Positions 315-36,238 of a DNA stretch of 64,000 bases are shown one piece after another. Position 1 is the first letter of the stretch. The number at the start of each line of letters is the position of its first letter. The stretch is from Mycobacterium sp. KBS0706 (lineage in GTDB: Bacteria; Pseudomonadota; Alphaproteobacteria; DSM-16000; Inquilinaceae): contig NZ_VCCH02000002.1 in NCBI RefSeq assembly GCF_005938675.2, positions 1 to 64,000 of the forward strand, in the 5' to 3' direction. The notes under the pieces were generated by a model, which was given only the letters and a program-made list of their open reading frames with translations, searched no databases and was not told where the DNA came from. The translations under genes were made by a program, and so were the position numbers.

Positions 315-449
315 TTTGCCTCTCCCGTTTACGGGAGAGGTCGGAGGCGCTTGCGCCTCCGGGTGAGGGGGGTTTGTCGAGGCCAGTGCCCGCCCTCACC
401 CGGTCTCGCTGCGCGAGCCCGACCCCTCCCGCCAGGCGGGAGAGGCAAA
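315..449. repeat. Palindromic GC-rich repeat element, copy 1 (intergenic)
   Basis: Outer inverted arms TTTGCCTCTCCCG (315-327) and its complement (437-449) enclose smaller hairpins: 320-339 (CTCTCCCG/CGGGAGAG), 343-360 (GGAGGCGC/GCGCCTCC), and GGGTGAGGG (361-369) with CCCTCACCC (393-401). The same CTCTCCCGC and CCCTCACCC vocabulary recurs at 26873-27026, 29868-30197 and 35164-35280. This copy occupies most of the 264-bp gap (269-532) between two convergent genes, so it could also act as a bidirectional transcription barrier. I see no gene in that gap. Confidence 0.85.
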
Positions 450-1501: not shown

Positions 1502-3568
1502 TTATGATCGGGCGCGGTGGGATGGCGGAAGAGAGTGGGAGTCGAACCCACCAAGGACCGGCTCGCGGCCCCTCCCGGATTTGAAGTCCGGACGCCCCAC
1601 CGGGGACGATTCTCCTCCAGGCTCCCCGGCCGGCGCCGCGCCGGTCGAGGGACGAAACAGGTCCAGCCGATGCCGGTTCAGTCGGCGCAGGTCGCCCCGC
1701 CGCAGCGTCACGCCGTGGCGGTCGAAGAACTCCAGGATCTGAATCGCGACCTTGCGGCCGCTGTCCACCTGATCACGGAATTGCGCCGCGGTGAAGCCGG
1801 TCTCATGGGCCTCGCCCAGTTGCTCCAGGATGCCGACGATCTCGGCCGCGGTCGGGCGCAGGAAGAAATGGTCATGCGCCACCTCGTCGACCCGGCCCAT
1901 CCGCCCGGCGCGCTTCAGCAGCCGGCGGACCTCCGCCTCCTCGATGCCGGCCTCGCCGGCGATGTCGCGCACCCGCGGCGGCCGGAACCGGGCCTCGCCG
2001 CCGAGCCGCGGATGGATCTCGGCCCACAGGATCTCGTCGGCCTCGGTCAGATGCGCTTCGTGGCCGGCCAGCCGGACCCAGGCGCCGTCCAGCGCCACCT
2101 GGCCGGCCCGCGCCATCACCCGCAGCAGGGCGGCGAAGGCCGGCGCGGGCAGGCGCGGCTGCGACGGCAGGCGCAGCCGCTCGAAGCCGATGCCGGGCAG
2201 GTCGGGGTTGTCGCGGTGGAAGCCGTCCAGCGTCTCCAGCAGCCCCTGGGTCAGCCGCGTCCAGTCCTCCGCGGTCAGGGCCAGCCGCTGTTCGCCCGCC
2301 ACGATCTGCATCAGGCCGAGCCGTTCGGCCAACGCGTCCACCCGGTCGGCGCCCAGCGCCCGGTCGCGGCCGAAGGCGGCGAGGTCGACCAGCTGCGGCG
2401 GCACCGCCAGCAGCGCCACCAGCGCGGCCTCCGGGTCGTCGAGCGCCAATGCCGCCAGCTGGGCCATCCGCTCCGGGCCGCGCCGCTTGCGCGCCGGCGC
2501 CCGCAGGTCGACCAGCCGGCCGCCGCCGATGGTGCGCTGGGCCGAGGTGTCGCGGATGACATAGCGGTCACCGGAAGCTGCGGCGACCGGCCGGTCCAGC
2601 ACCAGCTGTACGAAGGCCTCGCCGCCCGGCGGGATCGGGTCGTCGCCCAGCAGCACGATCCGCGCCCCGGCCTCGGCCGCGGCGGTGTGGAAGCGCACCG
2701 GGAACCACTGCCCGATCGGCCTGCGCTCGCCCGGCAGCACGCGCAGGGTCGCATCGATGCGCTCGGTCGGGGCGTGCAAGGCGGGGTCTAGAACCACATC
2801 GCCGCGGGCAAAAGCCTCGCGCGTCACCCGGTCGCCGGCCAGGTTCAGGGCGCAGCGCTCGCCGGCGCGGCCACGTTCGGCCGGGCGGTTCTGGGCGTGG
2901 ATCGACCGCACCCGCACCGGCAGGCCGGACGGGCTGGCGACCAGCTGGTCGCCGACCGCGACCGACCCCGAGAGCACGGTGCCGGTGACCACCGTGCCGG
3001 TGCCGTGCAGGGTGAAGGACCGGTCGACCGCCAGCCGGAACCGGCCCGCCGCCTCGCGCCCGGCGAAATCCGCGGCCTCACGCGCCAGCCGCTCGCCCAG
3101 CTCGGCGACGCCCTCGCCGGTCACGGCCGAGACCGGCAGGATGTCGGCTTCCGCCATGGTGGTTCCGGCCAAAGCCGCGTGGATCTCCGTCGCCACCGCC
3201 GCGCGCCGGTCGGGAGCGGCGAGATCGGCCTTGGTCAGGGCGACCACGCCGCGGCCGATGCCGAGCAGGTCGATGATCGCCAGATGCTCACGGGTCTGCG
3301 GCATCACGCCGTCATCGGCGGCCACGACCAGCAGCGCGAAATCGATGCCGGAGGCGCCGGCCAGCATGGTGTGGACCAGCCGCTCATGGCCCGGCACGTC
3401 GATGAAGCCCAGCACCTCACCCCCAGGGATCGGCCGGTAGGCGAAGCCGAGGTCGATGGTGATGCCGCGGGCCTTCTCCTCCTTCAGCCGGTCGGTGTCG
3501 ACGCCGGTCAGCGCCCGCACCAGCGCGGTCTTGCCATGGTCGATATGGCCGGCGGTGCCGATGATCAC
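1502..3568 (-). CDS. selB: Selenocysteine-specific elongation factor SelB
   Basis: About 688 residues. SelB delivers Sec-tRNA to UGA codons on the ribosome by binding GTP, Sec-tRNA and the SECIS hairpin. The N-terminal GTPase shows GHIDHGKT (residues 7-14), DVPGHE (57-62) and TKAD (112-115); EF-Tu-like domains follow, and the C-terminal half is the winged-helix SECIS-binding region. The GTG start at 3568 has a GGAGG site 6-9 nt upstream and overlaps the TGA of the upstream gene (GTGA). No ATG fits the conserved start. The frame does not stop before selC: roughly the last 38 residues, including '[14 protein letters not shown]', are encoded by the tRNA gene, and the TAA lies at 1502-1504. This tail looks non-functional as protein (inference). 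Confidence 0.96.
1523..1618 (-). tRNA. selC: tRNA-Sec (UCA anticodon)
   Basis: The minus strand folds as a long tRNA of 96 nt. An 8-bp acceptor stem pairs GGAGGAGA (from 1618) with TCTCTTCC. The anticodon loop is CTTCAAA with TCA, the T arm contains GGTTCGACTCC, there is an extended variable arm, and a discriminator G precedes an encoded CCA (1523-1525). An 8-bp acceptor stem, UCA anticodon and long variable arm are diagnostic of selenocysteine tRNA. It lies wholly within the 3' end of the selB reading frame on the same strand. The neighbouring selA, selB and selD and the UGA-containing fdnG confirm the role. Confidence 0.96.
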
Positions 3569-8400: not shown

Positions 8401-11400
8401 TCACGCCACCGGCGGCCCGGACGAGGCCTCGATGTTGACGCAGAAGGCCTTGAACTCCGGCGTCTCGATGTTGGCGTCGCCGACGAAGGGCGTCAGGACA
8501 TTCGCCCCGAAGCCCTTCCGGGCGGCGCCGATGAAGCCCCAATGGATCGGGATGCCGACGATGTGGACGGTCTTGCCGTCGCAGGTCAGCGGCCGGATCC
8601 GCTTGGTCACCACCGCCTTGGCGAAGACCGAGCCGCGCTTCGACCACACCCGCACCCAGCCGCCCTTGGCGATGCTCTTCTCCTTCGCCAGCTCCTCCGA
8701 GATCTCGACGAAGAATTCCGGCTGCAGGACCGAGTTCACATGGTTGTTCTTGGTCCAGTAGTGGAAATGCTCGGTCAGCCGGTAGGAAGTTGCGGCATAG
8801 GGGAAGTCCGGCGAGGCGATGTCGGCGAATTGCGCGAAGTCGTCCTTGAACACCCGTGACGCCGGGTTGCCCCGCACCTTCGGCGCGATGACGTTGGCGA
8901 CCGGGCTCTCGAACGGCTCGTAATGCACTGGGAACGGCCCCTCGCGCATCAGCCCGCGGGCGAACAGACGCGACACGCCCTCGGCGTTCATGATGAACGG
9001 CCCGACATCCTCCGGCTTCGCCGTCGGCGAGATGTCGGGGACGTCGTAGCCGGTCCACTTGCTGCCGTTCCATTCGATCAGCTTGCGGGACGGGTCCCAG
9101 GGCTTGCCCGAGACGTCGCAGGAGGCGCGGTTGTACAGGATCCGCCGGTTGGCCGGCCAGGAGAACGCCCAGTTCTGGAAGGTGCCGGTGTCGTCCGGGT
9201 CGGAGTTGTCGTGCCGGGCCATCATGTTGCCGGCCTCGGTGAAGCTGCCGGCATAGATCCAGCAGCCGCTGGCGGTCGACCCGTCGTCGCGCATCACCGC
9301 GAAGTTCGGCAACTGCTTCCCGGCCTCGACGATCTTCTTGGTCGGGTCGGCCGGGTCGAACAGATCCGCCAGGGCGGACCCGTTCATCTCCTTCGCCAGC
9401 TCCTCCGCCTTCGGTTCGCCCGGGTCGGCATAGGCCCAGTTCAGGTTCAGGATCGGGTCGGGGAAGGCCCCTCCCTCCGTCCGGTACATCTCCTTAAGTC
9501 GCAGATGGATCTGCGCCATGATCCAGGCGTCGGTCTTGGCCTCGCCGGGGGGCGTGCCGCCGGGCCAGTGCCATTGCAGCCAGCGTCCGGAATTGACCAG
9601 CGACCCCTCATCCTCGGCGAAGGAGGTGGTGGGCAGCTGGATCACCTCGGTCTGGATCGAGGCGGTGGCCGCATCGTTGTAAACGCCGTGGTTCTCCCAG
9701 AATCGCGCCGTCTCGGTCTCCAGCGGATCCATCACCACCAGCAGCTTCAGCTTGGCCAGCGCCTCGGCCAGCTTGGCCTTGTTCGGGAAGGCCTGGAGCG
9801 GGTTGAACCCCTGGCAGAAATAGAGGTTCATCTTGCCCTGCTTCATCAGCTCGAAGGCCCGCAGGATGTCGTAGTTGGCCACGTCGAGCTTCGGCAGCCA
9901 GTCATAGGCGAAGTCGTTCTCCGGCGTCGCCGCCGCGCCGAACATCGCCTTCTGGAAGCTGACGAAGAACTTCCTGTAGTTCTGCCAGAAGCTGGTCTGG
10001 TTCGGCCGCAGCGGCTTGAAGCCGCGGGTCGACATGTAGGTGGCGAGATCCTTTTCCGTGTCGCGCGGCAGGTTCATGTAGCCGGGCAGCGAATTCGACA
10101 AGAGCCCGATATCGGTCAGCCCCTGGATGTTGGAATGGCCGCGCAGCGCGTTCATGCCGCCGCCGCGGATGCCGATGTTGCCCAGGATCAGCTGCAGCAT
10201 CGCCATGGTGCGGATGTTCTGGGCACCCTTGGAATGTTGCGTCCAGCCCAGCGCGTACATCGAGGTCATCGCCTTGGTCGGCGACGAGGCCTCGCCGACC
10301 ATCTCGGCCACCTTCAGGAACTTGTCCTTCGGCGTGCCGGTGATGCGCTCGACCATCTCCGGCGTGTAGACGGCGACGTGCTGCTTCAGCAGGTTCCACA
10401 CGCAGCGCGGATGCTGCAGCGTGTCGTCAACCACGGCAAAGCCGTCCGGGCCGATCTCGTAGTCCCAGGTCGACTTGTCGTAGTCGCGCTTCTGCTCGTC
10501 ATAGCCGGTGAACAGGCCGTCATTGTAGGCAAAGCCCTCCTTCACCAGGAAGGTGGCGTTGGTGAAGGCCTTCACATACTCCCACTGCACCTTGTCGTTC
10601 TGGATGCAGTGGTTGATCAGGCCCAGCAGGAAGGCGATGTCCGTGCCCTGCCGGATCGGCGCGTAATAGTCCGCCACCGACGCCGAGCGGGTGAAGCGCG
10701 GGTCGACGACGATCAGCTTGGCGCCGCGGTTGGCCTTGGCCTCGGTCACCCATTTGAAGCCGCAGGGATGGGCCTCGGCGGCATTGCCGCCCATGATGAT
10801 GACGAGGTCGGTGTTCTTGATGTCGGTCCAGGAGTTCGTCATGGCTCCACGGCCGAATGTCGGGGCGAGACTCGCCACCGTCGGGCCGTGTCAGACGCGC
10901 GCTTGGTTGTCGAACGCCAGAATGCCGGTGCTGCGCACCACCTTGTAGGTGGCGTAGGCGGTTTCGTTGGTGGTCGCCGAGGCCGCGAGGAACCCGGTGG
11001 TCAGCCATCGGTTGACCGTCGTCCCGTCCTTGTTCTTGGCGATGAAGTTCGCGTCGCGATCGTCCTTCATGGCCCGGGCGATCTTGTCCAGCGCGTCGCC
11101 CCAGGAGATCCGCTCGAACGTGTCGCTGCCCGCGCGCCGCAGCATCGGAGTTTGCAGCCGGGTGGCGGACTTGACCGTGTCCAGCAGCGCCGCGCCCTTG
11201 GGGCACAGCGTGCCGCGGTTGGTCGGGTGGTCGGAATCGCCCTCGATATGGGTGATCTCGGCCCTCTCGCCCTTCCGAAGGTCGCCCTTGGAGTAGAGGA
11301 TGATGCCGCAGGCCACCGAGCAATAGGTGCAGGTGTTGCGGGTCTCAGTGGTGTTGGCGAGTTTGAACGGCCTGATCGCCGCGGCGTAGGCCGCCTCGAT

Positions 11401-25316: not shown

Positions 25317-26237
25317 TCACCGGTCTCCGGCGCGGGCGGCGAAGGCCCGGGCGCCCGCCAGCGACAGGCTCTCCATGTCCCGGTAGGCCAGGTCGGGGAA
25401 TTCCGCTGCGGCCAGCCGGGTCAGGACCGTGCCGGGCGGCATCTCCAGGAAGGTGGTGGCGCCATGCTCCGCCATCAGGGTGACGCTGTCGGACCAGCGC
25501 ACCGGATGGGCCAGGTTGGTCGCCAGCTCCTCCCGCACTGCGGCGACATCGCGCAGAACCCGGGCCCTCCGGTTGCCGACCATGGCGATGCGGGGCGCCG
25601 CGACAGGCACCGACTCGACTGTCGCCGTCAGGGCCGCCGCGGCGTCGTCCATCAGCGGACAATGGGACGGCACGGCCACGGCCAGCCGCTCCGCCCGCCG
25701 CGCGCCGGCCTGCTGTGCGGCGTCGATCGCGCGGTCCAGCGCGGGATCGGCGCCGCTCAGCACGAACTCCGCCGGCCCGTTGAGATTGGCGAGGTAGAGA
25801 AGCGGACCTGCCGCGGCGACGATCGTCTCGACCCGGCGCTGCGTCAGCCCGGTCACCGCGACCATGCCGAATCCGGCCGGGCAGGCCTGCTCCATCAGCC
25901 GCGCCCGGCGATCGACCAGGCGCAGCGCGTCGGGGAAGGTGAGGGCGCCCGCCGTCACCGCGGCGGCGAAAGACCCGACCGAGAGCCCGGCGACCATGGC
26001 TGGGGCGACGCCTTCCGCCGCCAGGGCGCGCGCGGTGGCGGCGCCGGCGACGAGCAGGCCGATCTGCACCGCCACCGTCGATTGCAGGGCGGAGGCTTCG
26101 TCCAGCTCCAGGACCTCCCGCCCCAGCACCGCGCTGGCCTCCTGCAGCGTCGCTGCGACGGCCGGGTGGTCCGGCAGCCGGTGCAGAAAGCCGGGGCTCT
26201 GCGCCCCCTGGCCCGGGAACAGGAAGGCGAGGCTCAT
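25317..26237 (-). CDS. mdcH: Malonate decarboxylase subunit epsilon (malonyl-CoA:ACP transacylase)
   Basis: 306 residues. MdcH loads malonyl groups onto the decarboxylase carrier protein. The fold is FabD-like: 'FPGQGAQ' at residues 7-13, the nucleophile S86 in 'GLSVGSF' and H192 in 'AVPSHCPLM'. The ATG at 26237 overlaps the mdcG stop (ATGA); the longer frame from 26768 is a shadow of mdcG. It is the last gene of the operon. The following 267 bp to the LysR gene contain only hairpin-rich, non-coding sequence with no clear U-rich terminator. Confidence 0.94.
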   Translation of the reverse strand: MSLAFLFPGQGAQSPGFLHRLPDHPAVAATLQEASAVLGREVLELDEASALQSTVAVQIGLLVAGAATARALAAEGVAPAMVAGLSVGSFAAAVTAGALTFPDALRLVDRRARLMEQACPAGFGMVAVTGLTQRRVETIVAAAGPLLYLANLNGPAEFVLSGADPALDRAIDAAQQAGARRAERLAVAVPSHCPLMDDAAAALTATVESVPVAAPRIAMVGNRRARVLRDVAAVREELATNLAHPVRWSDSVTLMAEHGATTFLEMPPGTVLTRLAAAEFPDLAYRDMESLSLAGARAFAARAGDR

Positions 26238-27061
26238 GCCGGCTCGGTCCAGGGATCGCGGACCAGCCGCGGCCCGGTGGGGGCTTTGACCACGACGGGG
26301 CCACCCGCGGCGATCTCGGCCAGGCTGCAGGCGCCGAGCGGGGTCTCCACCGCCATGTCGACCCGGACCCGCAGCACCGCGAGGGCCGCGAGCAGACGGC
26401 AGGCCTCGGCCGGGCTCATCCGGCGCGGCGCACGCAGGACGATGTCCAGATCGCTGTCCGGACGTGTCGTCGGATGCCCGGTGGCGAGCTCGAAGCCGAC
26501 ACTGCCGGCCGGACCCCAGTCCGATCCGGCGAGGAGGGTGGCGACGGCGTCGAGAGCCGCCAGTGCCGGGATCTCGGACTGACGCCAGGCTCGGGCCGCA
26601 GCCAGATCCTCCGGCGTGCGGCACTCGACGATCGCGGCCGGCGGCAGCCAGGCCGCGCAGCGTTCGGAACGGCCGTGCCCGCGGATGCCGACCGGCAGCA
26701 GGCCGTCGCAGGCCAATGCCCGGCGCGCCACCACCCACGGCACCGCCGCCAGCGACGCCGCGGCCCAACCGGGCAGGCCCCGGGCCAGTTCGGTGAGGGC
26801 TGCAGGGTCGACCCGCAAGAGGTCGTGCGGTTGGAACAGTCCTGCAAGCCAGACGGAGCTCTTCTCGTTTTTGTCCCCCCTCCCCTTGCGGGAGGGGGGT
26901 AGGGGGAGGGGGCTGCGCGCGTCCGCGCGCGAATGGGAAGGCAACCGCCGGGCCGACTCGTCCAGTTGTGGAGCGAGCGGAGAGAACCCCCTCCCCCTAT
27001 CCCCCTCCCGCGAGGGGAGGGGGGACTCATTAATCCAGGCGCTGCTCCCGCCTTCGCTCAT
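26234..27061 (-). CDS. mdcG: Malonate decarboxylase holo-ACP synthase, with in-frame repeat insertion near the N-terminus
   Basis: 275 residues from the ATG at 27061, two bases after the mdcE stop. MdcG transfers the phosphoribosyl-dephospho-CoA group to the carrier protein MdcC. The family domain begins at 'LFQPHDLLRVD' (about residue 69) and contains the nucleotidyltransferase-like 'DSDLDIVLR'. Residues about 13-63 are encoded by palindromic repeat copy 2, making the protein about 60 residues longer than usual. No ATG, GTG or TTG lies between the repeat and the conserved domain, so either the repeat is translated or an unusual start is used. An SD-like GAGAAGAG follows the repeat. Confidence 0.88.
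   Translation of the reverse strand: MSEGGSSAWINESPLPSREGDRGRGFSPLAPQLDESARRLPSHSRADARSPLPLPPSRKGRGDKNEKSSVWLAGLFQPHDLLRVDPAALTELARGLPGWAAASLAAVPWVVARRALACDGLLPVGIRGHGRSERCAAWLPPAAIVECRTPEDLAAARAWRQSEIPALAALDAVATLLAGSDWGPAGSVGFELATGHPTTRPDSDLDIVLRAPRRMSPAEACRLLAALAVLRVRVDMAVETPLGACSLAEIAAGGPVVVKAPTGPRLVRDPWTEPA
26873..27026. repeat. Palindromic GC-rich repeat element, copy 2 (inside mdcG)
   Basis: Outer arms GTCCCCCCTCCCC (26873-26885) and GGGGAGGGGGGAC (27014-27026) are perfectly complementary. Within lie the near-palindromes at about 26880-26900 and a GCGCGCG(TCC)GCGCGC hairpin near 26914-26930. The mirror-image arms and internal CCCTCCCGC vocabulary place it with the copies at 29868-30197, whose outer arms are almost identical. 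It carries no stop in the mdcG frame. Confidence 0.85.
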
Positions 27062-28735: not shown

Positions 28736-29025
28736 GACTTCGTCGCCTCCACCGCCTGCTCCAGGCGCAGCGCCACCATGCCCGGCGTGGCGCCGAAATC
28801 ATTGATCTCGACCGAGGCGGCGACGCCGTGGCGGGCGATGAAGCGATCCAGCACTGCCCGCCAGACCGCGCCGTAGCCATCGACGCTGGTGGTGACGCGG
28901 AAATGGGCCTGGCCGTCCGGCGAGGGCTCGATCAGCACCTCGAGATTGCCGGAGCCGACGACGCCGACATGGACGCGCTTCGGCACGGGCGTGGTCGCGG
29001 GGTAATCGAAGCTCAGGCGTTCCAT
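28732..29025 (-). CDS. mdcC: Malonate decarboxylase acyl carrier protein (delta subunit)
   Basis: 97 residues. The carrier holds malonate as a thioester on a phosphoribosyl-dephospho-CoA prosthetic group. The attachment serine is S25 in 'GVVGSGNLEVL', the expected position for MdcC. The fold differs from ordinary ACP. It overlaps mdcB by 13 nt and mdcD by 4 nt. Its prosthetic group is made by MdcB and attached by MdcG, both encoded in this operon. Confidence 0.95.
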   Translation of the reverse strand: MERLSFDYPATTPVPKRVHVGVVGSGNLEVLIEPSPDGQAHFRVTTSVDGYGAVWRAVLDRFIARHGVAASVEINDFGATPGMVALRLEQAVEATKS

Positions 29026-30224
29026 GGGACGAAGCTCCGGTCGATGCGGTCGAGGAACAGGGCGGCGGCCAGCAGGTCCGCCGAGCCGCCGGGCGACACC
29101 CAGCGGGCGAGGAGATCGGCGTCGAGCGCCTGCAGCGCCGCACGGCCGGCCGTGCTGGCGGTGCCGCCGGCGGCCAGCACGGCGCGGGCGCCGGATTGCG
29201 CCGCCGCCAGCGCCGGGCGGCCGCCGCGATGCAGCAGGCAGGTGTCGTCCAGCGATGCCATCACCGCCAGCAGCGCGTCCAGCCGGGCCTCGGTCTCCGT
29301 CGCCCCGGCGGCGCGGCTGGCGCTCAGGGCGGGGAGGGCGACGGCGACGACATGCGGGAAGCCGGCCCGGGCCTCGCCGCGGGCGCCGGCGGCGCCATGC
29401 GCCTGCAGCGCCTGCTCGCCGTTGCTCGCGGACTGCGGCGCGAACCGGTCGGGCCAGCGCGCGATCGCGGCGGCCACCGCGGCGATGTGGCGGGCGCCGG
29501 CCGGGCCGGCGATCGCCGCCCCGGCCAGCAGCAACCCCAGCGCCCAGATCGCGCCGCGATGGGCGTTGCTGCCGCCGGTCGCCGCCATCATGTGGATCTC
29601 GCCGACGCGGCCGATCGCAGCAAGCTCCTCGCGTAGCGCCTGGTCCGGCGCGCGGCCCCGGGCGGCCTCGGCCATGGCGTGGAAGGCCGGGCGCAGGGCC
29701 CAGGCGCTGCGGCGCAGAATCTCCAGGTCCAGGTCGCGATGGGCGCCGGGGCCGCGCCGGTCGACCAGGCCGGGCTTCGGGGTCAGCTCGGCCTCCTCGA
29801 CCAGCGCCCAGGCGGCGAGGTCGGCGAGGGTGTCGGAGGTGATAACGGCTGGAGGATTCTCCTTTCTAGTCCCCCCTCCCCTCGCGGCCACGGCTTTCAC
29901 ACATCGATCGTCGATACCAACGGCGGAGCTGTGAACCAATTGCCTCTCCCGCTTGCGGGAGAGGTCGGACATCCGAAGGATGTCCGGGTGAGGGTATAGC
30001 GGTTTCGCCGAAAGTGCTGCTTTGCCACGAGCGAGCGCATGATCCGGCCGGCCCTGAAACAGCGGTCCTGGCGTCGCGGCCGCGTCGCCCTCACCCGGTT
30101 TCGCTGCGCGAGCCCGGCCTCTCCCGCAAGCGGGAGAGGCAATTTGACAGCACCCTGAGATCTGTGAATCCGATAGCCCGCGAGGGGAGGGGGGACTCAG
30201 TGTGAAAGTGTCGATCTTGCCCAT
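29013..30224 (-). CDS. mdcB: Triphosphoribosyl-dephospho-CoA synthase, with about 110 in-frame residues of nested repeat
   Basis: 403 residues from the ATG at 30224, six bases after the mdcA stop. MdcB makes the MdcC prosthetic-group precursor from ATP and dephospho-CoA. The conserved domain begins only at about residue 120 ('ADLAAWALVEEAELTPKPGLVDRRG'), followed by 'HRDLDLEILRRSAWAL'. Residues about 10-119 are encoded by two nested palindromic repeats, and the frame contains no stop through roughly 330 bp. Usual family length is below 300. Between the repeat and the domain I see no ATG, GTG or TTG, only an AAGGAG followed by GTT ATC, so a standard internal start is not evident. Confidence 0.86.
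   Translation of the reverse strand: MGKIDTFTLSPPSPRGLSDSQISGCCQIASPACGRGRARAAKPGEGDAAATPGPLFQGRPDHALARGKAALSAKPLYPHPDILRMSDLSRKRERQLVHSSAVGIDDRCVKAVAARGGGTRKENPPAVITSDTLADLAAWALVEEAELTPKPGLVDRRGPGAHRDLDLEILRRSAWALRPAFHAMAEAARGRAPDQALREELAAIGRVGEIHMMAATGGSNAHRGAIWALGLLLAGAAIAGPAGARHIAAVAAAIARWPDRFAPQSASNGEQALQAHGAAGARGEARAGFPHVVAVALPALSASRAAGATETEARLDALLAVMASLDDTCLLHRGGRPALAAAQSGARAVLAAGGTASTAGRAALQALDADLLARWVSPGGSADLLAAALFLDRIDRSFVPWNA
29868..30197. repeat. Palindromic repeat element, copy 3 outer (inside mdcB)
   Basis: Arms AGTCCCCCCTCCCCTCGCGG (29868-29887) and the complementary end at 30178-30197 (20 positions, essentially perfect) match the outer arms of copy 2 in mdcG. The two halves are separated by copy 4, giving an element-within-element arrangement. 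Confidence 0.82.
29938..30144. repeat. Palindromic repeat element, copy 4 inner (nested in copy 3)
   Basis: Perfect 15-bp arms AATTGCCTCTCCCGC (29938-29952) and GCGGGAGAGGCAATT (30130-30144). Internal hairpins CTCTCCCGC/GCGGGAGAG and the GGGTGAGGG...CCCTCACCC pair are the same as in copy 1 at 315-449, so this is the same family. It sits wholly inside copy 3. Confidence 0.85.
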
Positions 30225-30230
30225 CGCCGG

Positions 30231-31871
30231 TCACCAGCTGCGGAACCGGGCGGGGGGGCGGTACAGCCCGCCGGACCAGTCCACCAGGTCGTCGATCGAG
30301 CGCGCCGCCAGCAGCGAGCGGTTCGCCTGCAGCCGGCTGACGCCGAGATCCTCGGGATAGGCGACGATGCCGCGGGCCCGCAGGTCGGCGGTCCGCTTCG
30401 CCTCCGCCCGCCGGCCGATCTCGGTGGCGCCGGCCACGGCGGCGATGGCGGCGCGCCGTTCCTCGCCGCCCTCGGCCTTGTAGAGATAGGCGATGCCCTC
30501 CTCGGTCACGACATGGGAGACGTCGTCGCCATAGATCATCACCGGGGCGACCGGCATGCCGCTGTTGCGGCCGACCTCGACCGCGTCGAGCGTCTCGACG
30601 AAGGCCGGCACGCCGCCCGACTTGAAGGTCTCGACCGTCTGCACCACCAGCTTGCGGCCGCGGGCGACCGGCGCCTTGGAGGTCATCAGGCTGAGCCAGG
30701 CGTCGCTGGCGTGGCGGCGGCCGCGCGGGTCGTGGCCCATATTCGGGGCGCCGCCGAAGCCGGCCAGCCTGCCGAGGGTGACGGTGGAGGAGTTGCCGTC
30801 CGCATCCATCTGCAGGGTCGAGCCGATGAACAGGTCGACACCGTATTGCCCGGCCAACTGGCAGAACACGCGGTTCGACCGCAGGCTGCCGTCGCGGCCG
30901 ACGAAGAAGATGTCCGGCCGGGCGCGGATGTAGTCCTCCATCCCGACCTCGCTGCCGAAGCAGTGGACGCTCTCGACCCAGCCGCTCTCGATCGCCGGGA
31001 TCAGCGTCGGATGCGGGTTCAGCGCCCAGTTGCGGCAGATCTTCCCTCTCAGCCCCAGGCTCTCGCCATAGGTCGGCAGCAGCAGCTCCACCGCCGCGGT
31101 GTCGAAGCCGATGCCGTGGTTGAGGGAGGTGACGCCGTGCCGCTCGTAGATCCCGCGGATGATCATCATCCCCATCAGGATCTGCAGCTCGCCGATATGG
31201 CGCGGGTCGCGGGTGAACAGCGGCTCGACCGCGAAGGGCCGGTCGGCCTCGACCACGAAATCCACCCAGGAGGCCGGGATGTCGACCCGCGGCAGCTCGT
31301 CCACGATCTCATTGACCTGAGCCACCACCACGCCGTGCCGGAAGGCCGTGGCCTCGACGATGGTCGGCGTGTCCTCGGTGTTGGCGCCGGTGTAGAGGTT
31401 GCCGTGCCGGTCCGCCTTCTCGGCGCAGACCAGCGCCACCTGCGGCGTCAGGTCGACGAACATCCGGGCGTAGAGTTCGACATAGGTGTAGATCGCGCCG
31501 ATCTCGAGCTTGCCGTCCTCCAGGAGCTGCGCCACGCGCAGGCTCTGCGGCCCGGCGAAGGAGAAGTCGACCTTGCGGGCGATGCCGCGCTCGAACAGGT
31601 CGAGATGCTCGCGCCGGCCGAGGGTCGAGATCAGCAGGTGCAGGTCGTGGACCTTGGCGGGATCGAGCCCGGCCAGGGACCGGGACAGGAAGTCGGCCTG
31701 CTTCTGGTTGTCGCCCTCCAGCGCGACGCGGTCGCCCGGCTCGATCAGCGCCGTCAGCGCGTCGCCGATCCGTTCCGGCTTCAGCACCGCACCGTCGGCG
31801 AAGGCGGCGGCGCGCTGCAGGCGTCTCGCCTTGCGGGCGGGCAGCGTCGACCAGGTCCGTGCGGCTTGCAT
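30231..31871 (-). CDS. mdcA: Malonate decarboxylase alpha subunit (acetyl-S-ACP:malonate carrier transferase)
   Basis: 546 residues. MdcA exchanges acetyl for malonyl on the carrier protein, releasing acetate. The sequence is typical throughout: 'VALEGDNQKQADFLSRSL', 'DLHLLISTLGRREHLDLFE', 'NHGIGFDTAAVELLLPTYGE' and the C-terminal 'GYRPPARFRSW'-like end ('GGLYRPPARFRSW'). The start was moved to ATG 31871, preceded by GGAGAGA and beginning 'MQAARTWSTLPARKARRL'; an in-frame start at 31898 lacks a ribosome site. It is the first gene of mdcABCDEGH and is divergent from a GntR gene. Confidence 0.95.
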   Translation of the reverse strand: MQAARTWSTLPARKARRLQRAAAFADGAVLKPERIGDALTALIEPGDRVALEGDNQKQADFLSRSLAGLDPAKVHDLHLLISTLGRREHLDLFERGIARKVDFSFAGPQSLRVAQLLEDGKLEIGAIYTYVELYARMFVDLTPQVALVCAEKADRHGNLYTGANTEDTPTIVEATAFRHGVVVAQVNEIVDELPRVDIPASWVDFVVEADRPFAVEPLFTRDPRHIGELQILMGMMIIRGIYERHGVTSLNHGIGFDTAAVELLLPTYGESLGLRGKICRNWALNPHPTLIPAIESGWVESVHCFGSEVGMEDYIRARPDIFFVGRDGSLRSNRVFCQLAGQYGVDLFIGSTLQMDADGNSSTVTLGRLAGFGGAPNMGHDPRGRRHASDAWLSLMTSKAPVARGRKLVVQTVETFKSGGVPAFVETLDAVEVGRNSGMPVAPVMIYGDDVSHVVTEEGIAYLYKAEGGEERRAAIAAVAGATEIGRRAEAKRTADLRARGIVAYPEDLGVSRLQANRSLLAARSIDDLVDWSGGLYRPPARFRSW

Positions 31872-32003
31872 CGGTCTCTCCGCAGGTGGCGTATACACGT
31901 ATCGATTCTATCGTCGAATATGAATACAGAGATTGCATCTGGCAAGATCTTGGAATACGTTCGTGCCATTAAAACCAATCAATGTGCACGGGAGGCTCGC
32001 TCC
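31872..32003. promoter_or_regulatory. Divergent promoter/operator region between mdcA and gntR
   Basis: 132 bp, clearly AT-richer than its neighbours. It contains the 6-bp dyad GTATAC (31891-31896) within GGCGTATACACG, reminiscent of FCD-type GntR operators that centre on GTATAC, and an ATTC-N7-GAAT inverted repeat (31905-31919). Regulation of mdc by the adjacent GntR protein is inferred from layout. Confidence 0.4.
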
Positions 32004-34112: not shown

Positions 34113-35081
34113 TCACCCCGTCCGGACCAGGCAGGCGGCCTCGGTGCCGCCATCGGCCGGGCGGAGGGCGGGGCGGATGGCGGCGCAATCCGCGACCCGG
34201 ATCGGGCAGCGGCTGACGAAGGGGCAGCCGGCGGGCGCCGCCAGCGGGCTGGGCAGGTCGCCGGACAGGATGATCTTGCGGCGCTGCCGCTGGGCTCGCG
34301 GGTCGGGCAGCGGGATCGCCGACAGCAGCGCCTCGGTATAGGGGTGGCGCGGCGCCGCGAAGACGGCGTCGGTGTCGCCCTGCTCGACGATGGTGCCGAG
34401 ATACATCACCGCCACCCGGTCGGCGATGTGGCGAACCACCGACAGGTCGTGGCTGATGAAGAGATAGGCCAGGCCCAAACGGTCCTGCAGCCGCACCAGC
34501 AGGTTCAGGATCTGCGAGCGGATCGAGACGTCGAGCGCCGAGACCGGCTCGTCGCAGACCAGCAGCTTCGGCGACAGCGCCAAGGCGCGGGCGATCACCA
34601 CCCGCTGGCGCTGCCCGCCCGACAGCTCGTTGGGATAGCGCTGGGCGTAGCCGGCCGGCAGGCCGACCAGGTCCAGCAGCTCCGCCACGCGCCGCCGCCG
34701 CTCGGCGCCCGGCGTGCCGCGGATCGCCAGCGGCTCGGCAATGCTGGCGTCGATCCGCATCTTCGGATCCAGCGCGGCGCTCGGGTCCTGGAACACGATC
34801 TGCATGGCGCCGGCCAAGGCGCGGCGCTCGGCCGGGGCGGCATGGGTGACGTCGCGGCCCTCGAAGGCGACGGTGCCGCGCGTCGCCGGCTCCAGCCCCA
34901 GGATGGCGTAGCCGGTGGTCGACTTGCCGCAGCCGCTTTCGCCGACCAGCGCCAGGGTGCGGCCGGCCTCGAGCTCCAGCGAAATGCCGTCGACCGCCTT
35001 GACCACGGCGCCCTTGGCGGCGCCGCGGACCGGGAAATGCACCGCCAGGTCGCGGACCGAGAGGAGTGGGGCTCCGGTCAT
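34113..35081 (-). CDS. Peptide ABC transporter ATP-binding protein, DppF/OppF type
   Basis: 322 residues; ATG at 35081 overlaps the upstream stop (ATGA). Walker A 'GESGCGKST' (about residues 50-58), Q-loop 'IVFQDPSAALDPKM', signature 'ELSGGQRQR', Walker B '[14 protein letters not shown]' and 'ISHDLSVV' are intact. The C-terminal oligopeptide domain has 'GCPFVSRCPIRVADC' with the usual cysteines. It ends 21 bp from the convergent MatC-like gene. Last gene of the 45-34 kb operon. Confidence 0.94.
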   Translation of the reverse strand: MTGAPLLSVRDLAVHFPVRGAAKGAVVKAVDGISLELEAGRTLALVGESGCGKSTTGYAILGLEPATRGTVAFEGRDVTHAAPAERRALAGAMQIVFQDPSAALDPKMRIDASIAEPLAIRGTPGAERRRRVAELLDLVGLPAGYAQRYPNELSGGQRQRVVIARALALSPKLLVCDEPVSALDVSIRSQILNLLVRLQDRLGLAYLFISHDLSVVRHIADRVAVMYLGTIVEQGDTDAVFAAPRHPYTEALLSAIPLPDPRAQRQRRKIILSGDLPSPLAAPAGCPFVSRCPIRVADCAAIRPALRPADGGTEAACLVRTG

Positions 35082-36238
35082 GCCAGCTCCCCGACGCGAT
35101 CGCTGTGCCAGCACGCGGCCAGATGGTCCATTGCCGGATTGGCTCGCGATGGAGAGGCCTGCTCCCCCTCACCCTCCCGTCGCTGCGCGCCGGGCCCCTC
35201 CCTCTCCCCGAGGGAGAGGGTTTCTTCACCTCTCCCCCGGGGAGAGGTCGAAATCGCGTCGGCGATTTCGGGTGAGGGGGTGGCACCAGCCTGTCCATGG
35301 AGGCCAGCGCCCTTCGCCGGTTCCAGCGGGGGCGTCTCGGCGCAGCGCTCATCGGCCAGCGGGCAGCGGGTGCGGAAGCGGCAGCCCTGCGGCCAGCTGG
35401 CCGCGTCCGGCACCGCGCCGGCGATGGTCTTCAGCTCCTGCCGGCGCGGGCCGTCGAGGCGCGGCACGGTCGCCAGCAGCAGCCTGGTGTAGGGGTGGGC
35501 CGGGGCATCGAAGATGGCGTCGACCGGCCCGGTCTCGACCACCGTGCCGCCATACATCACCGCCACCCGGTCGGCCATGTCGGCGACCACGCCCATATCG
35601 TGGGTGATCAGCAGGATGGCGCTGCCGGCCTCGGCCCGCAGGGTCTTCAGCAGGTCCAGGATCTGGGCCTGGATGGTGACGTCCAGCGCCGTGGTCGGCT
35701 CGTCGGCGATCAGGATCTCCGGCCGGCAGATCAGGGCCGAGGCGATCATCACCCGCTGGCACATGCCGCCCGACAGCTCGAACGGGAACTGCCCGGCCCG
35801 CCGCTCCGGATCGGCGATGCCGACCCGCGCCAGCATGGCGACGGCCTCGGTGCGGGCGGCGGCGGCCGAGGCGCCGCGATGCAGCCGCAGGCTCTCCGCC
35901 ACCTGGTCGCCGACCCGGACCAGTGGGTTCAGCGACGCCACCGGCTCCTGGAAGATCACCGACACCCGGTTGCCGCGCAGGTCGCGCAGCGCGGCCTCGT
36001 CGAGGGCCAGGAGGTCGGTGCCGTCCATGGCGACGGTGCCGCCGGCGATGCGCGCGGCGGCGGGCAGCAGGCGCAGCACCGACAGGGCGGTCAGGCTCTT
36101 GCCGCAACCGCTTTCGCCGACCAGGGCCAGCACTTCGCCGCGGCCGATCGACAGCGACACGCCATCGACCACGGACCGGCCGCCGATGGCGACGCGCAGC
36201 CCGTCGATGGCGAGAAGGGGCAGGGCTTCAGCCGGCAT
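35078..36238 (-). CDS. Peptide ABC transporter ATP-binding protein, DppD/OppD type, with in-frame repeat insertion
   Basis: 386 residues, about 45-50 more than usual. The nucleotide-binding domain is complete: Walker A 'GESGCGKS', Q-loop 'VIFQEPVASLNPLV', signature 'ELSGGMCQR', Walker B '[14 protein letters not shown]'. The C-terminal domain starts normally ('GCRFRTRCPLADERC...TPPLEPA'), is then interrupted near residues 320-358 by translated palindromic repeat, and resumes with the ordinary family ending 'DHLAACWHSDRV'. Because the native end is recovered in frame, the repeat is an insertion. It overlaps the ggt-like gene by 11 nt and the next ATPase by 4 nt. Confidence 0.93.
   Translation of the reverse strand: MPAEALPLLAIDGLRVAIGGRSVVDGVSLSIGRGEVLALVGESGCGKSLTALSVLRLLPAAARIAGGTVAMDGTDLLALDEAALRDLRGNRVSVIFQEPVASLNPLVRVGDQVAESLRLHRGASAAAARTEAVAMLARVGIADPERRAGQFPFELSGGMCQRVMIASALICRPEILIADEPTTALDVTIQAQILDLLKTLRAEAGSAILLITHDMGVVADMADRVAVMYGGTVVETGPVDAIFDAPAHPYTRLLLATVPRLDGPRRQELKTIAGAVPDAASWPQGCRFRTRCPLADERCAETPPLEPAKGAGLHGQAGATPSPEIADAISTSPRGRGEETLSLGEREGPGAQRREGEGEQASPSRANPAMDHLAACWHSDRVGELA
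35164..35280. repeat. Palindromic GC-rich repeat element, copy 5 (inside oppD-like gene)
   Basis: Perfect 11-bp arms CCCCCTCACCC (35164-35174) and GGGTGAGGGGG (35270-35280), total 117 bp, exactly 39 codons. Internal hairpins: CCCTCTCCCCGAGGGAGAGGG (about 35200-35220, quoted positions only for the full stem), CTCTCCCCCGGGGAGAG near 35230-35246, and AAATCGCGTCGGCGATTT (35251-35268). The flanking codons belong to the conserved end of the ATPase. Confidence 0.86.

Follow-up and report, generated by a model that had tools for sequence, protein, structure and literature searches.

How a palindromic repeat of more than three hundred bases came to lie in frame inside a gene with a conserved domain, and whether its nested form records two insertions at one place, are the questions raised by mdcB, which encodes triphosphoribosyl-dephospho-CoA synthase. 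We analysed a window of 64,000 nucleotides, the whole stretch of DNA that contains the gene, together with six genomes of one genus of soil bacteria, called Inquilinus (G000 to G005). G000 is the genome of the window (8.97 Mb, 449 contigs, contamination estimate 9.8%).

An in-frame composite palindrome in mdcB

The element in mdcB is 330 bp long and consists of two A-type half-arms around a long B element (Table 1). The outer arms form an inverted repeat that nearly matches the arm of the copy in mdcG (GTCCCCCCTCCCCTTGCGGG at 26873-26892), largely as the initial annotation had proposed; the inner arms, which it had put at 15 bp, are indeed perfect and are longer than that. The reading frame is open across the entire element. 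Since TIGR03132 begins at residue 132 of MdcB and the CitG domain at residue 134, about 110 residues ahead of the domain come from the element, in agreement with the same annotation, and no ATG, GTG or TTG lies between the element and the domain in mdcB of the window. As RNA, the 330 bp is predicted to fold at -209.5 kcal/mol, a value reached by none of 100 dinucleotide shuffles (z -11.4); the A element of mdcG folds at -127 kcal/mol (z -10.8; 0 of 200 shuffles as low). The element bears terminal inverted repeats. Target-site duplications, which the initial annotation had proposed to look for at 29938 and 30144, are found neither there nor at the outer ends when 10 bases per side are compared.

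Table 1. Palindromic elements and their host genes in the 64,000-nucleotide window.
Feature	Position	Strand	Remark
Composite palindromic element in mdcB	29868..30197	-	A half-arms around a long B element; in frame
Outer arm, A type	29868..29887		perfect, 20 bp
Outer arm, A type	30178..30197		perfect, 20 bp
B element nested in the composite	29938..30144		
Inner B arm	29938..29964		perfect, 27 bp; itself hairpin-like
Inner B arm	30118..30144		perfect, 27 bp
mdcB (triphosphoribosyl-dephospho-CoA synthase)	29013..30224	-	start 6 bp past the mdcA stop
mdcA, gene upstream of mdcB	30231..31898	-	mdcB element begins 33 bp past the mdcA stop
A-family palindrome in mdcG	26873..27026	-	in frame; 40-bp arms, 95% complementary
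mdcG	26234..27061	-	start 1 bp past the mdcE stop
Short B element	315..449	+	stand-alone copy
D-family palindrome in OppD-like ATPase	35164..35279	-	internal in-frame copy close to the C-terminus
OppD-like ABC ATPase (ABC_tran + oligo_HPY)	35078..36238	-	carries the D element

Elsewhere in the window, a tRNA-Sec lies at 1527-1618 (-) and a SECIS_3 element at 10838-10896 (-), so that the organism probably makes selenoproteins.

The composite is a recurring unit

The whole of the 330-bp query (1-330) recurs in G000 at about 81% identity (L002), which, together with the strength of the fold, excludes that the arms are a coincidence. G000 holds at least three further near full-length copies of the composite (L002, L003 and L005) and at least three one-ended copies (L004, L006 and L010), and these counts are lower bounds from 40 scored candidates out of 289. 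In the alignment the copies share the spacers between the A half-arm and B (CTAGGGCATATACACATC... on one side and its partner on the other). The spacers are present in all six Inquilinus genomes, where 33 of the 34 matches listed are halves. A probe in which the two spacers are joined detected no clear outer element without B in the six genomes, with 40 of 91 to 159 candidates scored per genome; one weak match in G001 runs across the join (34-75 of 92).

Because the A-ended form of B recurs, the nest in mdcB is a spreading unit and not the record of two insertions at mdcB. The initial annotation had read the nesting as successive mobility of two repeat subfamilies. Two families are indeed present, in frame, and families do succeed one another at this spot (see below); the landing of B in an A element at mdcB itself is not supported, given the recurrence of the unit, the joined-spacer result and the absence of a visible target-site duplication.

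The palindromes named here belong to unrelated families: A, B, the A/B composite, C, D and F. The A and B families are 135-330 bp long, and F starts with GTCATTGCCGGGCTTGACCC. D and F were found as occupants of orthologous 3′ sites (sites 0 and 16 in G003 and site 31 in G004). Rfam contains no family for the repeats at gathering thresholds. Among 17 genomes of the taxonomic family, the B query matches seven, which are the six Inquilinus genomes and one other with two weak matches. In a plasmid collection neither B nor A gave a match at E 1e-5 with the BLAST low-complexity filter on, which may hide A.

Different families occupy the same spot in mdcB and mdcG

mdcB was found in five of the six genomes, and G002 gave only a match to the element at E 1e-20. 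In all five the gene carries a palindrome at the same spot, after a conserved start 6 bp past the mdcA stop. The occupant is the A/B composite in G000, an A half-arm with B in G003 (inverted relative to G000, the right A arm being absent), a plain A element in G004 and G005, and an unrelated C element in G001. The comparison across related genomes that the initial annotation had recommended thus gives A alone twice, A with B twice and C once, all in the same place and all filled. mdcG likewise bears a palindrome at one spot in five of five genomes: an A element in G000, a short B in G003, C behind a B half-arm in G001 and G005, and in G004 a remnant of A, about 36 bp long and still able to fold. 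All ten mdcB and mdcG alleles are in frame and free of stop codons. Identity over pieces of the mdc genes is 0.905-0.930 among the five genomes, which form nearly a star.

A second cluster in G000 (L106, C405:46000-52000) contains MdcG-like and CitG/MdcB-like reading frames, and in translation no palindrome is seen where the two meet.

Different occupants at orthologous gene ends

Besides the two mdc sites, G000 has 44 eligible sites, of which 34 were drawn at random and ten left out. The upstream gene ends were sought in G001, G003 and G004; 80 of the 102 site-genome pairs could be assessed, and 22 were dropped (21 not found, one found but not placed). These gene ends are 75-99% identical, and 75 of the 81 reach at least 85%. 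At the 80 orthologous ends a different family is present in 29, the same family in 19, a mixture in 2 and none in 30. The added C, D and F queries came from ortholog sites first scored as empty, or from mdcG, which inflates occupancy; the narrower set of three families, which lacks this step, gives 24 different, 17 same, 2 mixed and 37 none, with a background of 6/109. With the wide set, neighbouring 3′ ends in the same loci are occupied in 14/109 (Fisher 2e-4 versus 29/80), and against this looser background the contrast is weaker. Ends that are empty in G000 are occupied in relatives in 3/73 (Fisher 6e-7 versus 29/80), or in 2/26 where at least 40 bp of space is available (Fisher 0.006 versus 29/80), and these control counts are small. 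At further ends of the same control set that are occupied in G000, the relative is occupied in 10/18. The p-values serve as guides, since the three genomes at each site are not independent.

More than one family is found at 15 of the 21 sites assessed in all four genomes, and the patterns of families conflict between sites. Judged by eye at ten sites, a change of family comes with a change of the spacer between stop codon and element. Several empty relatives have the two genes almost abutting. Layered remnants, detected by exact arm motifs, occur at 5 of 90 junctions with the binding-protein junction left out. C stands behind a B half-arm in mdcG of G005 and at site 1 of G001 (and, by eye, in mdcG of G001); A stands behind a B half-arm at site 24 of G003; and B lies within or behind A at site 37 of G003 and in mdcB of G000 (and, by eye, in mdcB of G003). 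At two further sites, 39 (C417) and 42 (C57), the relatives have an overlapping ATGA stop/start, and in the filled G000 the element is flanked by ATGA at each end, which looks like a duplicated overlap or a start formed anew.

These states could arise at a pure insertion hot spot, where new palindromes land in, or are captured by, existing ones while the old parts decay; the position would then persist because the target persists, and the host would gain no function. IS elements are reported to target REPs (reference in PMC5082802), and the layered states described above, as well as the multi-copy nature of the A-ended B composite, are in keeping with such a process, which we regard as quite possible if somewhat short of an even chance. 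It fits less well with the spacers, which differ between alleles too, and with the rarity of remnants, as at most exchanged sites the exact arm motifs give no sign of the other family.

Alternatively, homologous recombination in the flanking genes may have exchanged whole intergenic blocks among species, which would make the different families imported alleles. The joint change of spacer and element between gene ends of such high identity is expected of this process, as exchange of a whole intergenic block would likewise couple the two, and the conflicting family patterns between sites point the same way. The first arrival of different families at the same spot is left unexplained by it, and we rate it as a rather unlikely account. 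Layered remnants suggest that new elements arrived within or next to older ones, and coupled spacers suggest block exchange; both may act.

Palindromes within coding sequences and their empty alleles

Beyond mdcB and mdcG, in-frame palindromes are present in two more protein-coding genes, making four loci. In a family-5 solute-binding protein (PF00496) the signal peptide region is split in frame by B in G000 (C395:101083-101218) and by C in G001 and G003, while the element-free G002 has an ordinary-looking signal peptide. No ortholog was detected in G004 and G005 at E 1e-60. The D element of the OppD-like ATPase is present and open in frame in G000, G001 and G004, and the site is empty in G002 and G003; G005 gave no match to the gene. 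The coding sequence is conserved on both sides of this element, so the insertion cannot be a misplaced start. The empty sites outside mdcB are too diverged for a target-site duplication to be read. The B, C and empty alleles of the signal peptide and the D and empty alleles of the ATPase are ready natural comparisons.

Three of the four in-gene copies sit in the first codons. All 13 filled N-terminal alleles (mdcB, mdcG and the solute-binding protein) are in frame and stop-free, and their predicted folds are more stable than those of mononucleotide shuffles (z -2.4 to -10.5), which is not true of the one empty allele (z +0.8). Di Nocera et al. (2013) suspected that many N-terminal REPs are untranslated (PMC3733652), and the N-terminal copies here might similarly be leaders, with the genes starting inside or after the element. 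An in-frame ATG, GTG or TTG does occur within the element in 10 of the 13 alleles, so part of the N-terminal extension may be untranslated. A start after the element, however, is missing from 12 of the 13, including nine of the ten mdcB and mdcG alleles (the exception, mdcG of G004, has one TTG at the element edge), and two of the five mdcB alleles (G004 and G005) have none inside it either. The upstream ATG, moreover, is conserved, and in the binding protein the start and the GAGGAG motif that precedes it are common to the filled alleles and the element-free G002. Such leaders are therefore unlikely at the three N-terminal loci, and the idea is inapplicable to the OppD-like gene, where coding sequence flanks the element.

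Placement behind genes

The placement of the repeats was surveyed in 1.13 Mb of G000 (12.6%) with a home-made coding model. The pieces come from contigs with B copies, smaller ones being placed around such copies, so that element density is not an unbiased figure. The 62 clusters found with A, B, C and the composite divide into 43 between tandem genes, 18 between convergent genes, none between divergent genes and one inside a predicted gene (3 of 65 near piece ends were dropped). Divergent space makes up 24.9% of the intergenic length, and the binomial probability of 0/61 is 2.6e-8; zero divergent copies are also expected if insertions in promoters are simply lost. When D and F are added, the 82 clusters comprise 58 tandem, 22 convergent, 0 divergent and 2 inside genes (4 of 86 near piece ends were dropped). 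The coding model misplaces the starts of mdcB and mdcG, which it sets downstream of or inside the elements; both are scored as tandem for this reason, and the clusters within genes therefore number 4 of 82. Each of the 46 clusters of at least 80 bp follows a stop codon at a distance of -4 to 122 bp, with a median of 37 bp. The copies in mdcB and mdcG fit this rule, the first 33 bp past the mdcA stop and the second 35 bp past the mdcE stop, and the in-gene copies are rare exceptions to an extragenic rule. The repeats are thus multi-copy and lie behind genes and not between divergent genes, as do REP/BIME elements in the broad sense.

That the palindromes are selfish repeats specialised for coding sequence, as the four in-frame copies beside intact domains (mdcB, mdcG, solute-binding protein and OppD-like) might suggest, was rejected as very improbable, because the clusters are mostly intergenic (80 of 82 in the gene model, before mdcB and mdcG are recounted).

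A model of persistent sites and changing occupants

We consider it likely that these REP-like palindromes keep their positions, that one family replaces another over time, and that close packing of genes leads to in-frame capture. In Inquilinus the repeats lie some tens of bases past stop codons, like REP/BIME elements elsewhere. The site would be long-lived and its occupant replaceable, so that over species time one family may yield to another and sometimes leave layered remnants. Tight packing would put the site inside the next gene at mdcA-mdcB, at mdcE-mdcG and at the gene before the solute-binding protein; in the OppD-like gene it would fall in a loose C-terminal tail. Within genes, presumably only in-frame, stop-free versions survive, and the repeat, if translated, would become a low-complexity protein segment before or beside an intact domain.

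By analogy with REP elements elsewhere, a 3′ role in decay or termination may be supposed. The long RNA hairpin could mark the 3′ border of the upstream message, against decay or read-through, with any sufficiently stable hairpin serving; we put this forward as a possibility that is a little less than evenly balanced. REP elements are described to hinder 3′-5′ decay, affect termination and stall ribosomes near stop codons (PMC5082802). With none of the known families at 30 of the 80 orthologous ends, many sites can do without a repeat. More tentatively still, selection might keep a strong hairpin at gene ends regardless of its sequence, the unrelated families being interchangeable parts, and packed operons might tolerate the repeat-coded residues (up to about 110).

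Such a history would amount to positional conservation of structure without conserved sequence or even a conserved family, and would offer a path from junk repeats to protein segments. It has long been asked whether extragenic palindromes are junk or serve a use, and the replacement sites allow this to be tested directly: should a place retain a hairpin of whatever kind, then a hairpin is what that place requires. These sites include four genes where palindromes would cost extra protein.

Comparison with known systems

The closest likeness is to the REP/BIME repeats of the GTAG and CGTC super-families, which share paired inverted hairpins, many copies, a place behind tandem or convergent ORFs and occasional copies within ORFs (PMC3733652). 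The location of REPs behind genes and the intragenic REPs are already known from that work, the cited passages of which also assign RPE-4/6 to the CGTC REPs, report no transposase for CGTC REPs, and note that two Xanthomonas species carry different REPs at roughly the same position in recB. The C family resembles alphaproteobacterial CGTC REPs in its terminal CGTC, in CCA after the first stem and in its head-to-head dimer, as compared by eye with the description in PMC3733652 and not with its consensus figure. The ends of A (AGTCCCCCC) and B (ATTGCCTCTCCC), in contrast, carry neither tag by eye, and both families are longer. The cited parts of PMC3733652 do not describe one family taking the place of an unrelated one at an orthologous gene end.

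REPINs, which are inverted pairs of hairpins moved by RAYT transposases, are likewise hairpin pairs spread over a genome. Mobilisation of the present repeats by a RAYT was rejected, as Y1_Tnp (PF01797) has no match in G000 at E 0.01, with six of 14 control genomes positive. MITEs are similar in size and terminal inverted repeats; no target-site duplication is seen at the mdcB element, and a transposase search with the PF01797 profile pointed to no parent transposon. The Rickettsia palindromic elements, for which an in-gene location is the main habitat, are also in-frame palindromes inside proteins with conserved domains. Here, however, the in-gene copies are the minority, three of the four lie in the first codons and the host is not Rickettsia, while the Rickettsia elements are usually described as specialised for coding sequence (background section of PMC3733652). 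Br-REP1 and Br-REP2 of Bradyrhizobium (PMC5082802) are also alphaproteobacterial 3′-UTR palindromes, seen in transcripts and changing fast between relatives. Their sequences are different, and the cited parts of that paper describe no coding captures or orthologous exchange.

Searches of open-licence papers for REP family exchange between orthologous sites, for in-frame palindromes and for Inquilinus palindromes listed no such report, and a text search with the C-family motif returned no paper relevant by title. As far as we have seen, A and B are new families; also new are the frequent replacement of one family by an unrelated one at orthologous gene ends and the same replacement inside genes with the reading frame kept.
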